Shown piece after piece: positions 3,247 through 15,700 of a DNA stretch of 64,000 nt (position 1 is its first letter; each line of letters starts with the position of its first letter). The stretch is taken from positions 67,372,033 through 67,436,032 of the forward strand of contig OX485804.1 of NCBI GenBank assembly GCA_950295325.1. Reading direction: 5' to 3'. The position numbers and the translations under genes are program-made. This stretch comes from Polytrichum commune. Taxonomy: Eukaryota; Streptophyta; Polytrichopsida; Polytrichales; Polytrichaceae. The notes beneath the pieces were generated by a model. That model searched no databases. It was not told where the DNA came from and saw nothing but the letters and a program-made list of their open reading frames with translations.

Positions 3247-3835
3247 GGGGCACTTTATATTAGGGCCCATTTCCAAACCCTAGACATCAACCAATCAAAG
3301 TGCTTAGATTGCCCAAATGGGCCCTAATATGGGCCCAAGGGCTTTATATTGAGAGTCGGCCCACTTCTCCTAAAGCTTGCGTGGCGGGTGACATGGCGGC
3401 GTTTTGGAGGGAAAAAAGTGGGCCAAAGGCAAAAAAATGGGTCGAGGGTTTATGGAGACCCACTTCGCACCTACGGCCCACTTCACCCAACTTCCGTCAT
3501 AAAGTCATATGACTTTATGACTTTATGACTTTATGGTTTTATGACTTTTTGACTTTTTGACTTTATTAGTTCAAGCAAGGGCATAATTCATTTAAGCCCA
3601 AGTGTGCCGTGGATTGGGCCTTACAATATAAAGTCCCTAGGCCCATTTGGAAGGCCCACTTTAAAGTACAATTTCCAACTTGGGCCCTACAAGTGGGCCT
3701 ATGGACTTTATATTGCAAGGCCCACTCAACGGCCCACTTTGTAAAGTAGGGCTAAAGTTAAGGCCCACTTAAGGTAGCAGTGGGCTCAACTCCAAATGGG
3801 CCGGCCGCCAAATGGGCCCTAATGTAAAGTGCCTC
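3247..3835. mobile_element. Non-autonomous DNA transposon with 26-bp TIRs
   Basis: The 26 bases at 3247-3272 (starting GGGGCACTTT, ending GGGCCCATTT) are repeated in inverted form at 3810-3835 with 24 of 26 positions matching. The 589-bp interior has no transposase. It is packed with GGCCCACTT and its complement, so large parts can fold back. Similar flanking bases (CTAAA on the left, CTAAC on the right) hint at a TAA-type target duplication as in PIF/Harbinger MITEs, but the match is offset by one base, so the superfamily is not settled. An ACTTTATG array sits inside at about 3506-3568. Confidence 0.6.
3506..3568. repeat. Short tandem repeat, ACTTTATG-type unit
   Basis: Seven or so degenerate copies of an 8-bp unit (ACTTTATG, drifting to ACTTTTTG) lie head to tail inside the TIR element at 3247-3835. 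Confidence 0.7.
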
Positions 3836-9218: not shown

Positions 9219-9331
9219 TCCACGTTAAATAAAGTGGACCAAAAATAACAAGAACAAGTAACGTCCAAGTGTGAACGCAAAGTGGTTAGGAAATTTGCTC
9301 TTGAAATGAAGAAGTTGATGCATAGTCTATG

Positions 9332-9342
9332 TCCTAGAGACA
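9332..9342. repeat. 5' target site duplication of retroelement
   Basis: TCCTAGAGACA is repeated exactly at 12786-12796, directly after the element's 3' tail. An 11-bp direct repeat at the two ends is the expected footprint of target-primed insertion. Confidence 0.75.
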
Positions 9343-9602
9343 TACCCTCAAGAACGCATACAAAATACAAAACCATCACATTCACATAAGAACTAATAGA
9401 CATAACCTACAACCCCCGCCACCTCCACCACCGGAGTATCCAACCCCCCCCCCCCCCCGCATATCCAAAAAAACCATACCCAATTTCCAATACACTCTAT
9501 AATAAACGACCGTACTCACCCTTTCAAAGATAAAAACAAAATTACAAAACAATACACATTCTATCTATGCCAATGGCAACTTCCAAACGGAACAAATTAC
9601 CA

Positions 9603-10012
9603 CAAATGGCTTCCACAAAGAGACTTATTCACATGGAACAACCAAGACATCATAAATCATAACATACTACTCCTAACACGGTATTACACCCAAAAACAAC
9701 ACAAACACTTCACCAACATCCTACAATTAAACTTTAATGAAGACCAATTGAGAGAAGCAAGATACATTCCCCCCCCCCACAGAATATACCCCTATGTCAT
9801 ACCCACATTAATGAATGCAACCCCGACAATGACATTGCATGTACGCAACATACCATCCAAAGCCAACATGGCGCATCACATATTTACGACAACGATGGTC
9901 GTCACTTAGTTACCATCCCGGAACAAAGATTACAATGGTTATGGGAACAATACCAAGCCGCACTAACTAAAGTACACAACTTAGACCCCCCATACAAACA
10001 TTTGAAAAAGAA
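9603..10012 (+). pseudogene. Retroelement polyprotein, 5' part with frameshifts
   Basis: A frame beginning near 9607 reads WLPQRDLFTWNNQDI and stays open to the ten-C run at 9769-9778. Beyond it the protein-like reading moves to another frame (YDNDGRHLVTIPEQRLQWLW at about 9885-9945). It then moves again at the six-C run 9986-9991 into the frame that continues as VAWLYQRYKY at 10013. This looks like one ancestral coding region broken at two C homopolymers. I recognise no domain in it. It may be the region linking RT to the downstream enzymes. Confidence 0.5.
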
Positions 10013-11359
10013 GTGGCGTGGTTGTACCAAAGGTACAAATATAGAATGCCCAAAAATGACCCTCTCAAACTCGCACAATACACCCTCCCTAATGCCATCA
10101 TTGAACACCTCATCAACTCCTTCCACATCACCCACTCCTATTTTTCATCCCCTGTAACATGTCCTACCACGCTAAAACAATTTTCCTCCCCATTTACCCG
10201 AGACAAAGTATTCGGTTCAATAGGAACAGCATTCCAACATAAATGGATAGGGAATGGGTATGCCCATCCACATACAGAAGTAGACACACAACAAGCCCTA
10301 CACTGGGCAAGACTTGCAACCCAAAATAACCCAGATACAATTACAATACTCATAACAACCGACCCAAATTGGTACCAGAACCTTCAACCTCATGTAGGCC
10401 CTTTCCCAGATTCACATGTCATAACACACCTTAAAGCGGACACCATTATATACGATGAACCCACTATACCACCCGAATTACGAATTGAACCACGCATAGA
10501 AAGCCGTGACATCCGCATACTATGTATACATCACAAAAACACGGTACTCGGCCCGAGAAATTACGCACACCAAATGGACATTATTAGCAATACCTTACAA
10601 TTACCCACTACATTTAACACAACGGCGCCACCCACACCCATAAACACCCTAGTAAACCGTAGTAAGAAATGGTCACAACTCATATACCCTCCTCCACCTA
10701 CGACCCAAGTTACTAATGTCCCCATCTCCACCAACCAAGATATATGCCATCCCCTCAAATATCAACCACAGTTCTGCTATTACACAGACGGATCATTCAT
10801 CCCACCCAAAGAAACAACCCAAGGACATTGGAAACGAGAAAAAGCGGGATATGGCATATACAACCCTTTCAAAAACCTCAAAATCACATAAAGACTACCC
10901 GGACTACAAAATATACTAAGAGCCGAACTAATGGCCATACACCATACCCTCCGCCTCCTCACTACCACATATCGCAACGAACCAGCACACATCTTCACAG
11001 ATTGTCTTAATGTGCTATACCTATTAAACACACAAATAAAACATCCAACCCTCCATAATAGCCACCCGGACAAAAAGATACTCGAATCTATAATTGAAAT
11101 GTTGCAATCCCGCTCACAAACCACTACACTCCATAAAGTCAAAGCTCACACAAATATTAGTGGTAACGAACAAGCGGACAAATTAGCCAAAATGGGTTGT
11201 GAACTCGAACAAAGAGATGCCACAACCACATATGAACATGCACACCCTACGCCATACTACCTACAGAGAGACTGGTGGCACTCAATGCAAGAAACACCAA
11301 ATAAAGGCCCCATCCGACACCTTGGTAAATACATCGCTAAACATGACAAAAAAACTTAA
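10013..11359 (+). pseudogene. Retroelement polyprotein: methyltransferase-like region plus RNase H
   Basis: This is one reading frame interrupted by a single TAA at 10889-10891. Residues from about 10200 to 10540 (VFGSIGTAFQHKW, GNGYAHP, ILITTDPNWYQN, then IRILCIHHKN) follow the order of motifs of PCIF1-type adenine-methyltransferase domains, although the catalytic N-P-P-F-like box is altered to A-H-P. From 10770 an RNase H fold begins: Y-Y-T-D-G-S (D codon 10787-10789), R-A-E-L after the stop, I-F-T-D-C, and K-A-H-T with N-E-Q-A-D. The four acidic catalytic positions and the histidine are therefore all still present on either side of the stop. The frame ends at TAA 11357-11359, just after a seven-A run where reading shifts to the next segment. 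Confidence 0.65.
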
Positions 11360-12242
11360 CCTATCCATCATAGCAAACCAAACACATCAACTCCACAAGT
11401 GGCTAGACAACAAAGATATTGACAAAACACTATCAAATGATTTTTGGAACAACCCGATTATCACAAACAAACAAAAAACATGCCTAGTCAAATTCAGAAC
11501 CGGACAATACATGGGACATGCTAGAAAACAACTCTTCTTCGGAAGAAATGCATACCCCTCATATACGTGCCCCATATGCAACGCACAAGAAGCAGACACA
11601 TGGTTACATGTACTCCTCAAATGTAAACAACAACACATTCACGCACTAATAACCAAAAGGCATAACAAAGCCGTATGGGAAATACGCAAACTTCTCATCT
11701 CAAACAAAAAGACAAGATACTACACACTCATGAATGCAGGTACATATAATGAGCTCCCCCAAGAAAACATAGTCCCATCATGGTTACTTCCATGCACATG
11801 TACCACCCAAAGATGTCACTGCAACGCTAGGCTCAAACCTGACATATTATGCATAATAGGACACCCATATAAATCCCCACCACCAGAAGCACCCACACCG
11901 GAAATTACAGTTCAATTCATAGAATTCACATATTGTAATGACAGATTCTCCACTGAAATCATAAATCAAAAAATTACAAAATATCAACCCCTCATAAATA
12001 ATAATATTGCAAAGGGGTGGAACGTAGCCCCACTTATTGTATTAGCATCTGGTGCTAGAGCCACAACTCACATCCCCTCAATGAACGAACTTGAAACAAA
12101 GCTTAAACTCCCTACATCACAAATTAGGAACACATTCAAACAACTTAACACAATTGCCATACAATATGCACACTCAATATTAATCCACAAAAGACGAATA
12201 GAAAATAAACAACCCATCACAGACCTACAAAATCATAATTAA
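11355..12242 (+). pseudogene. Retroelement polyprotein: CCHC knuckle and restriction-like endonuclease
   Basis: After a shift of frame at the A7 run (11348-11354) the polyprotein continues to TAA 12240-12242. A zinc knuckle CPIC-x9-H-x4-C starts at 11568. It is followed by R-L-K-P-D, I-T-V-Q-F-I-E-F, then K-I-T-K-Y and G-W-N-V-A-P-L-I-V. A CCHC knuckle, a K/R-P-D, a following acidic beta strand and a K-x-x-K-Y is the arrangement of the PD-(D/E)XK endonuclease at the C terminus of R2-, NeSL- and Dualen-type elements, which nicks the target. The distance from P-D to the next acidic strand is longer (about 27 residues) than the classic R2 spacing. Within this segment the frame is uninterrupted for almost 300 codons, suggesting fairly recent insertion. 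The full open frame starts at 11199, but the part before 11355 overlaps the RNase H frame. Confidence 0.65.
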
Positions 12243-12746
12243 AATTAGAGAGGGGCAGTGGTCAGACCACTAGTTATTAAGTTACCACCTATAGCTCAGA
12301 AAGGTGGGGAGTAGCCGGCTGGTTGGCATAACTTTCATGCCTATGATTAACTCACTTGCAGCACCAAGTCAAAGTGTATTGCACTAACACGCTCAAACGG
12401 ATTCAACGCGAATCGAACCCAGACCGTATTAATACAACACGCACATCCTCATCCAACCAACCTTGGAACTATGACTTGGCGACCAACCATACAACCAACC
12501 ACCACTTATACTCCAAACAAATATGCACGCTTCTCGTCTCAAACAAAGTAGCAAAACCCACAAAACTCTAAATTAAAACCCATGCACCTACATACCCCCC
12601 TTCCCCCCCCCCCCTCCCGGTTTAACCAGTTAAAACATCAGTTACTAACATAGTGTCTACTCCCTGCAAAGGGTGAAGTAGTATTACACCCAATGCCGCT
12701 ACCCTGGGGTACGGCCACGGTTGTCCTATGAATAGACACTTTATTC
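12243..12746 (+). other. Retroelement 3' untranslated region
   Basis: Non-coding tail of the element. It holds GTGGTC/GACCAC and CCACCT/AGGTGG short inverted repeats near 12260-12305, a C run near 12600-12615, and a segment near 12400-12425 whose minus strand reads like a tRNA T-arm (GGGTTCGATTC). These may be structural signals for the element's own reverse transcriptase, but that is an inference. Confidence 0.45.
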
Positions 12747-12787
12747 ACTCCGGTCCCTAATAGGGACCGGAGTTCTTCTTCTTCTTC
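12747..12787 (+). repeat. Retroelement 3' hairpin and TTC tail
   Basis: ACTCCGGTCCCT at 12747-12758 pairs perfectly with 12762-12773 around a three-base loop, and is followed at once by about five TTC repeats to 12787. A 3' stem-loop plus a short simple-repeat tail is a common priming signal of non-LTR elements. The downstream target duplication begins inside the last TTC unit at 12786. Confidence 0.75.
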
Positions 12788-12796
12788 CTAGAGACA
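12786..12796. repeat. 3' target site duplication of retroelement
   Basis: Exact copy of the 11 bases at 9332-9342, placed straight after the TTC tail. Confidence 0.75.
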
Positions 12797-15700
12797 AAGC
12801 CAACAAACACCAAACATAAGCATGTTAAAAAAAAAGTTGGACTATGTTGTCAAATTAGGTCCCTATTCTACACCCAATAGTGAATATAATTATGTTTTTG
12901 GTTAAAGAATCAAAAAACATGCAATCCAATAACCATTATTGAATCATGGAAAGTCATACATTCAATCCAATTTTCTTTGATGCTTCATTGTAGATTTGCT
13001 AATGCAGCACATGTTCCGTTGTATAGATACAATCGGTAGAAGTTGGGGCATGAGAAACAATCCGAATAATACCCATACATGCATTGGGGGTCAAGCTCAA
13101 ATCAAATACCTATTATAAAGTATGTTTTGGAGACCTTCAAAACATTGCTTGTGGGGTGATCTTGTTCTAATACCAATGTTAGATACAAAAATGGTCCCAG
13201 GTTTTTCATCTATTCCAGTTTGGCCAACTCGTACACTGACCTAAGTTGGTAGCGTATGAAGCACACTCCCAACCACAATTTTTACTCATAAACACATAGG
13301 ACAAGGAACATGAATGCGAAACATAATCATAGATTTTCTTTCCCTTCGGTTATTATCACTTTTGAAGCCAATGAGCTCACATTATGCAATGTGAACACCT
13401 TGAGAATGTAGTGTTATTAAGCCCCTAAGGAGCCCCTCAAGTGCCAATCGTCAAGATTTGGGTTTTTACAAATGTGGGCAATGCTCATTCTTCTTGGTAG
13501 AACCCATTTGTGAATTTGTTTTCCAAGCTTGGTTTGCTATTGTAGTTTTTGTGTTAGGTTTGTAATGGTAGTTCCTAATTACACGCACACGCATGTGGAT
13601 ATAAAGATATTTATTGATATTACCCTAAATCTTGTGATTGATGACCGCTTGAAAGTCAATACATGGGCATTGTTGGGTTGCTGAACTTTATGAAGGGCAT
13701 GCTATGTAGAAAATGGTAGGAAGGTCCATTGATTTCCAACGTTAGCATTAGGTTTGGCCTAATCAAATATTATTGTTGTCACCTTAAAATTGTTCGAACG
13801 AGATGAGTATGTATAATTCTCTTCACTTTGGGAAATCAAGATCTATAGTTTGTCTATGACCTAGAATAGCATTTATGCTTATAAAACCATTGGTGAGATC
13901 CTCAAACAATTTAGTAGCTAATCATAGAAGTGACAAATATAAGATTTGTTTTTCTTTGATCCATTTAGCTTTGTCAAGACCCCTCACGCGCGTGCACAGT
14001 TAAGAAGCGTGCTCTTCTAAGGCATATAAATTACCATGTTCTCCATACTTCTTTAAGTTTTAGATCCATAACTATGCAATAGTTGCAAGCACATGGTATT
14101 GATATTTTGTTGCCAACAACAAAACATCATTATGCATATTTATACTACACATCCATTTTGCAATCAAGATATAACATGTTTATTTTTTACGCAAATACTC
14201 TTATGTATAAATACAAAAAACTCACTTTTATTATAGATTGTGAGCCAATTTTTGAGGGTTATGGTTTCACTATCAACAATTTAGTGATATTTTGATGGAA
14301 TTTGTACTTAGATTGATGAAAGAGGTGAACTATGGGCAAAGTAAGCGGTCATAACTATAATGATGGGCTTAGGAGCTTGTAGTTAGTTACACTATCATTG
14401 TCCCCCCTCGAGGGAGGCAAAGCAAGACATACATTTCTTTGATTAGTTTTGAGCGTATTGTTAAACTTATAGTCTTGTCTCCCTCGGCACATAGATTGTG
14501 CGAGGCCGATAGTTAAACTAATTTATGTGAACCAATTAGCAATTACCACAACGATTTCGGGATTGCACCTTTGAGATTAAGTGATTTGTTATTTTGGATA
14601 TGAGTTATACATCAGTGTTGACGGTCGGCCATCCATGGTTGTACAACATGTTAATCATGATCATAATGGTATAAGGAGCCAATGTTAAACCATCATGATA
14701 TGCTCGCATGGCCATATATTTCATGACATGAAACATGTAAGATGGTTCAATATACTTTGATGCATGACACATCCTAGGTACATGAGATCTCAAAATACAT
14801 GCAAACATTTTTACAACGGAAACCTATATCGAACCCCATATTCTTATTCTTATTTAAGAACCGCAGCCGATCAAATGGTGAATATTATGCTAATGTGTTT
14901 GAATAGATTACCAAGGAGGTGGTTGAGGATTAGGGCACGGGTTAGGGTTAACATGAAGCAATGCTTATGGAGTTTACACTGCATATGAACATGATAATAC
15001 ATTGTTTGTTGTGAGCCACTTGTATAAAACAACATACCACATGAATCATTGCACAATTTTTTTCTTTGTCATACTATGTTCTTTCATGTGTAGATGTTGG
15101 TCCCAAGTGTGTCTCCTACAACTTAGGATATTTCTATATCCAGGATATCAGTTTGTCGAAATAGGGATATGTATAATGTTTGAATGTCCATGTCTTACTT
15201 AGAAATCAATAGGAAAAGATTCGTGGATTTCATACAACCATGATGTTTTATTTACATGAACTTTGTGTTATGGTTTCTCATGTCAACGACTTAGCATGTT
15301 TTCATGTATACATCTATGTTCAGAGGGTAATGAAATGGAGGGTAGTTTGGTGCACGGTAGTGTTTTGGACCCCTTTGTTTATGATTGATTTTCTTGTTTT
15401 TTGATTTGCATGTACATTATAGGTAATCTTAAAAATATTGTGCACTAAGTTTATCAAGGGATGTGTTTCTTAACAAAGATTCTCCACCCTTGAAACCCAT
15501 TTTTCCATGTACATCAGACGTTTTCATTCATCCAACATTTTTAATCCATCCAACGTGCAACATGCTTACAAACAAATCATACTAAACATAAATCTTAGGA
15601 TCCTACAATTCAACCCCTGTATTAATCCTATTAGAAAGTAGTGGCCTATATTTTATACATATTTACTTTACTTATGATGGGATTATCTATTTTTTCATTG

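Follow-up and report, generated by a model that had tools for sequence, protein, structure and literature searches.

A 5'-truncated LINE copy probably derived from a large dual-endonuclease element with PCIF1-like and chromodomain-like parts

The window analysed here (the whole stretch of DNA, 64,000 nucleotides) contains a 5'-truncated, broken retrotransposon copy at positions 9343-12785 of the forward strand, the strand of all features below unless stated. It is flanked by an 11-bp target-site duplication, TCCTAGAGACA, at 9332-9342 and 12786-12796. When the two flanks are joined, the resulting site aligns to a repeat in another locus of the genome (L053) with 128 of 136 positions identical and no gap, so the element boundaries are real and the copy is a true insertion; this empty-site paralogue agrees with the 11-bp duplication claimed in an earlier sequence-only reading. 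The insertion lies inside another interspersed repeat, with window positions 9219-9334 being 94% alike to L053 positions 3700-3835. A longer copy, L009, is 85% identical to the window copy across 3,464 columns (window 9342-12786). Because the second open reading frame (ORF2) of L009 matches the window copy by tblastn in five pieces and three frames, and because the RNase H region has one in-frame stop at 10889-10891, we consider the window copy dead. Its truncation at 9343 would be the usual outcome of incomplete reverse transcription. No second copy was found inside the 64-kb window by tblastn or blastn with L009.

The downstream part of the copy holds the motifs that first drew attention to it. 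The RNase H region spans 10767-11200, its start being approximate, and the part after the stop matches Pfam PF00075 (E 4.5e-12), as the earlier reading had proposed. The CX2CX9HX4C knuckle is indeed present at 11568-11624, and a second cysteine cluster, CXCX4CXC, lies at 11793-11822 just before the nuclease motif. The restriction-like endonuclease (RLE) runs from 11829 to the stop codon at 12242 and includes the RLKPD (11829-11843) and KxxKY (11970-11984) motifs noted before, plus a glutamate at 11922-11924. Conservation was judged from a C-terminal alignment of 16 copies from three families, chosen for long frames. The Cys/Cys/His/Cys of the knuckle, the four cysteines of the second cluster and the PD, E and KxxKY residues of the nuclease are invariant in 16 of 16, as are the E, D, H and D of RNase H; the first aspartate of RNase H is present in 15, with asparagine in L027.

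The earlier reading had sought a nuclease fold after the knuckle, and a search by predicted structure with the corresponding part of L009 provides one. By sequence, the RLE region gave nothing of weight against the PDB (best E 0.39 and 0.8). The AlphaFold model, built from an 11-row alignment, has a mean pLDDT of 56, with residues 191-300 in blocks of 57-86. Foldseek ranks six R2 proteins at the top of its 614 PDB matches to this model (best E 9.1e-4), and VIA-align places the same six R2 entries first (Z 9.4-10.3), followed by viral cap-snatching nucleases (Z at most 8.7). The lead of R2 over other fold matches is modest, and the domain order, the position after the knuckle and the invariant catalytic residues agree with it. 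On this model, the C-terminal nuclease is a PD-(D/E)XK enzyme with a predicted fold closest to R2 proteins.

Related copies are abundant in the host genome (407.8 Mb in 64 contigs). The RLE-containing frame of the window has at least 116 matching places, which are all those scored from 5,924 first-look candidates and hence a lower bound. Longer copies with a reverse transcriptase (RT), which the earlier reading had sought, were recovered (L009, L010, L013 and L014); these and L015 were read further. Four families (A to D) were seen, and the window copy belongs to family A. Family D, read from the RT downstream only, carries RT, PCIF1-like part, RNase H, knuckle and RLE in the same order (RTs L048-L050 and L052; downstream parts L053 and L054). 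Two copies, on contigs C1 (L055, L017, L013) and C4 (L056, L018, L014), are bounded by 14-nt direct repeats, TATGTAGATGAAGG and TATAGTAACTTAAA, the initial letters of which may be part of the tail. Between these repeats the copies measure about 13.5 kb and 14.6 kb, respectively, by hand-derived lengths. Target duplications across copies are 11-14 nt, and no flanking direct repeat was found for L009 or L010 in the DNA examined.

ORF2 forms stop-to-stop frames of up to 2,919 codons in the C1 copy and 2,924 codons in the C4 copy. Within this frame of about 2,900 codons, a 2A/StopGo-like motif occurs about 580 codons in and is followed by an apurinic-type endonuclease (APE), RT, a chromodomain-like part, a PCIF1-like part, RNase H, the zinc knuckle and the R2-type nuclease. 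The ORF1 frames of the same two copies extend for 1,310 and 1,833 codons from stop to stop, the latter starting in the flank with its first methionine just inside the element. Their C-terminal parts are related (27% across 437 aa, 3e-54), and neither ORF1 has a confident Pfam match.

Pfam locates an APE upstream of the RT in three of the four copies scanned (L009, L010 and L013). In L009 the matches occur in the order APE (PF14529, 5.3e-7), RT (2.5e-26), PCIF1_WW (1.5e-9) and RNase H (8.2e-15), with one stop codon between the 2A-bearing frame and the APE frame. L013 shows the same order, its APE being recognized via PF03372 (1.2e-5) in one open frame with the RT. The APE match of L010 (2.7e-9) is in the same frame as the RT, with one stop between them. 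In L014, where, as in L013, the 2A-like motif and the APE region share a single frame, Pfam recovers the other domains of L009 but not the APE (at E 1); the APE motifs QETK, GDFN and SDH are legible in that frame. Since the longer copies carry an N-terminal APE, the domains run APE-RT-RNase H-RLE, the layout of a dual-endonuclease element and not of an RLE-only one. We therefore consider, with a probability of roughly 80%, that 9343-12785 is a dead copy, truncated at its 5' end, of a large LINE built on the dual-endonuclease Dualen/RandI plan. The earlier description of an RLE-type element unlike the usual plant LINEs thus holds for RNase H and the R2-type RLE, and needs amending for the APE that the longer copies also have.

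The RT itself is nearer R2 than L1 by sequence similarity. In phmmer searches of the PDB it matches R2 at 1.9e-26 and L1 at 7.4e-15, and the family D RT shows the same preference (4.2e-39 versus 4.6e-22). By contrast, the RT of L045, an L1-like element of the same genome, has L1 entries as its best matches (3.4e-55). The window thus holds a real non-LTR element with RNase H and an R2-type nuclease, distinct from the L1-like copies of the same genome. Such L1-like elements with long open frames are present at L041-L047 and L051. An unrooted tree of 15 RTs, which includes L010 and was built, like the rooted one, without a Dualen reference RT, splits R2 and these elements from L1 (human and the genome's own L1-like RTs) with support of 100/97. 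In a tree rooted with a nuclear maturase, from which L010 was left out because its cut region was uneven, support is 51/36 and the outgroup branch is 8.8; an AU test gives p 0.469 for grouping with L1. An ordinary L1 or RTE RT together with an APE, one of the two outcomes that would have spoken against the earlier reading, was not seen, yet the rooted tree is compatible with an L1 grouping. A scan of viral contigs for relatives with the RT alignment yielded 94 pattern matches, zero of which were confirmed.

Kojima and Fujiwara reportedly described the Dualen/RandI non-LTR retrotransposons in 2005. The Chlamydomonas Dualen encodes a cysteine protease, which is not known to define the group. In our element, Pfam identified no peptidase in the proteins scanned. 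The shared features are APE and RLE in one element, an RT, RNase H and a 3' tail of a simple repeat other than A. Excerpts of PMC4640811 and PMC3636483 state that Dualen encodes both nucleases, and the former lists Dualen/RandI among RNase H-bearing elements. The APE-RT-RNase H-RLE plan is thus that of known Dualen/RandI elements; the most unusual parts are the PCIF1-like and chromodomain-like ones, which, with the 2A-like motifs, the long ORF1 and the lack of a detected protease, set this element apart from that group. According to passages of PMC4640811, the position of dual-endonuclease elements has been read as a sign that the APE took the place of the restriction-like nuclease in LINEs.

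An alternative is that these elements form their own clade, having put APE, RLE and RNase H together independently of Dualen, for example by an R2-like element capturing an APE. The long RT branch (2.1 changes per site in the unrooted tree) and the undetected protease would fit such an origin, as would the extra domains, which go unmentioned for Dualen in the portions of the literature cited here. However, two nucleases in one element are the mark of Dualen in those same portions, and independent assembly is the less simple account, so that we regard a separate lineage as unlikely and retain the Dualen/RandI assignment.

The host differs from the hosts recorded for this group. It has a plant plastid, whereas the available text of a 2015 survey of 257 genomes lists Dualen/RandI in green algae only (PMC4438587). 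Parts of other sources place Dualen in Chlamydomonas relatives (PMC8226300) and in cryptophytes (PMC12747079), and give (ATT)n and (CTATTT)n as RandI tails in green algae (PMC3747384). On contig C8 (146,561 bp), rbcL is followed first by tRNA-Arg(CCG) and next by an ORF taken for accD. Such a gene order, like the rbcL protein, is in keeping with bryophytes and other non-flowering plants, which makes a land plant likely and a bryophyte probable as host. In the PDB, rbcL scores highest against entry 9chz (1,082 bits), with 1,062 bits for the runner-up. Light-harvesting genes are present in the genome, with 14 equal-score matches clustered at C5:1751760-1846160.

Three features of the element escaped the earlier reading: the PCIF1-like and chromodomain-like parts, and the 2A-like motif, which is absent from the truncated window copy. 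The PCIF1-like domain lies at 9989-10297 (PF12237, E 3.2e-10, 40.3 bits versus a cut-off of 31.1). Across the genome, all 150 places scored from 697 candidates exceed the Pfam cut-off for PCIF1_WW; two family D copies fall just under it, with 28.5 and 28.2 bits. Two profile searches of the PDB with homologous copies returned only PCIF1 entries, at modest E-values (0.0098 and 0.038; 0.0022 and 0.096). The likeness to PCIF1/CAPAM, a cap-specific adenosine methyltransferase, centres on a stretch around SSP..C...S..RD..FGS.G. In the NPPF motif of PCIF1 the asparagine is catalytic. Unlike the enzyme, the element lacks this residue in 18 of 18 copies: the position is histidine in all 16 aligned copies from three families, the window copy also having histidine, and phenylalanine or histidine in the two family D copies.

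Despite the loss of the catalytic asparagine, sequence comparison indicates that the PCIF1-like domain is under purifying selection. The dN/dS ratios, which are rough because many dS values are near saturation, are 0.08-0.16 for this segment, from the 9 of 11 pairs that allowed a calculation, compared with 0.09-0.22 for the RLE (10 of 11 pairs). AlphaFold returned a pLDDT of 39 and a pTM of 0.24 for the PCIF1-like region, and we rejected the model as a fold-search query. A search of the host for a cellular PCIF1 with a PCIF1 fragment (PDB entry 6irx) gave three weak places (best 5.2e-4), all within the PCIF1 places counted above; 150 of 216 candidates were scored, and an intron-split gene could escape such a search.

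The chromodomain-like stretch (YLCQW..W..L..Y) occupies approximately 9484-9684, limits set by eye from homologous copies, and the window copy itself has no Pfam match within them. Pfam Chromo matches three of nine aligned members, the best at E 0.0014 and 18.9 bits, which is under the cut-off of 25.1; hence we label the stretch 'chromodomain-like' only. A profile search of the PDB places chromodomain-Y-type proteins in the first six of 15 rows (E 0.021-0.07), with CBX4 chromodomains in two further rows (0.21 and 0.24) and unrelated proteins in the other seven (from E 0.15). Nine copies from four families all keep the Y, L, W, W, L and Y positions, and dN/dS for the segment is 0.03-0.17 (7 of 11 pairs). 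By these sequence criteria, the stretch between the RT and the PCIF1-like part is likely a chromodomain.

Could these two segments be chance or decayed matches without function? The sub-threshold Chromo score, the lost PCIF1 asparagine and the unsuccessful fold prediction of the PCIF1-like region would agree with that. Against it, PCIF1 is above its cut-off at every scored place and is the sole protein returned by both PDB profile searches, dN/dS is on a par with that of the RLE, and the whole segment (A4) has 67 invariant columns in 11 copies from four families. We consider an origin by chance or decay distinctly improbable and both parts probably genuine domains of the dual-endonuclease element. 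Open-licence literature (Repbase being outside its scope) yielded, in the portions available, no text linking PCIF1 with a domain encoded by a retrotransposon, or Dualen with a chromodomain; excerpts of PMC5348765 and PMC6338049 note chromodomains for LTR elements.

Two other known systems invite comparison. The element shares with R2 its closest RT by sequence and its closest C-terminal knuckle and RLE by predicted fold, but it also has an APE, RNase H and an ORF1, the RLE is not its sole endonuclease, and the 3' flanks of the copies compared differ among themselves by eye. An RLE-only element of the R2, NeSL or Utopia type that acquired RNase H, as the R2-like RT and RLE might suggest, is highly improbable, because the APE is in the same frame as the RT in L009 and L013, and in L010 with one stop between, and because RNase H lies downstream of the RT here, unlike in oomycete Utopia, where passages of PMC4640811 place it upstream. 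Plant L1 elements with RNase H (Ta11-type, from part of PMC5348765) share the APE, RT, RNase H and target-site duplication with the dual-endonuclease element, whose RT is nearer R2 by similarity and which adds the RLE. Its RNase H also differs from theirs in keeping the histidine of the D-E-D-H-D set in 16 of 16 copies; archaeal-type RNase H has arginine there, according to an excerpt of PMC4640811.

All five longer copies contain NPGP motifs, eight in total. Three of the eight have the canonical StopGo core (DIELNPGP, DVEPNPGP and DIETNPGP), defined in part of PMC12846837 as (D/G/C/N)(V/I)ExNPGP, and in the remaining five E is replaced by Q, H or K. The same portions cite Odon 2013 for 2A in APE-type LINEs and report that plant viruses show no evidence of using StopGo naturally.

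The domain content suggests a replication cycle, every step of which is read from that content. Ribosome skipping at the 2A motif would detach the N-terminal leader from the enzyme part, and the enzyme would then recognize the 3' RNA structure of the element. One of the two nucleases would nick DNA, where reverse transcription would be primed, and the other would cut the second strand, while RNase H would clear the RNA. The chromodomain-like part may steer the complex to marked chromatin, and the PCIF1-like part, without its catalytic asparagine, may serve to bind a capped 5' end or the template RNA instead of acting as a methyltransferase. Tentatively, and with the odds somewhat against it, the elements may represent an undescribed dual-endonuclease LINE lineage with its own chromatin reader and chromovirus-like targeting, a dead PCIF1 module for cap or RNA binding, and StopGo release of its enzyme; it could then be the first LINE known with a chromodomain and the first known case of natural StopGo use in plants. 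With chromodomain-like and pseudo-PCIF1 parts placed after the RT and before RNase H, LINEs would gain two further routes to chromatin and RNA. Many long-open copies in one plant genome would let the strand assignment of each nuclease be tested.

The 3' UTR (12243-12785) is alike in other copies and contains a putative conserved RNA structure at 12652-12740, closed by the stem AGTGTCT...AGACACT, and a terminal hairpin with 13-bp arms at 12747-12773. It ends at 12774-12785 in a (TTC)n tail, as previously described; this tail is that of family A, and families B and C have (CTAT)n or close variants. The structure was assessed in 23 of the 33 sequences found (21 distinct rows); set aside were L040, which has lost the hairpin, L003, which is cut off, and eight more, most of them near-duplicates, and L005 was not among the 3'-end sequences found. 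In this alignment 97.8% of cells are paired, both-side changes occur in 30 cells, whereas shuffles give 11.0 and none of 500 reaches 30, and covariation is 0.300 compared to at most 0.099 in slid controls. Support for the structure is moderate, because the four pairs with a both-side change are no more than shuffling gives (224 of 500) and because a single genome supplied every row.

Rfam and ARAGORN detected no known RNA or tRNA in window 12200-12850, and Rfam gave only seven sub-threshold microRNA-type matches in L055 and L056, those in L055 all upstream of the element. By eye, a block of the 3' UTR (window 12300-12500, several copies) has on its minus strand a tRNA B-box-like sequence, GGGTTCGATTC, and the same block has the inverted arms GCACCAAGTCA/TGACTTGGTG; ARAGORN finds no tRNA in the window. 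The family A stem pattern occurs at 241 places in the genome and its reversed control at 0. Set beside the coding matches, of which there are at least 116, some of these 241 places may be SINE-like partners or truncated copies.
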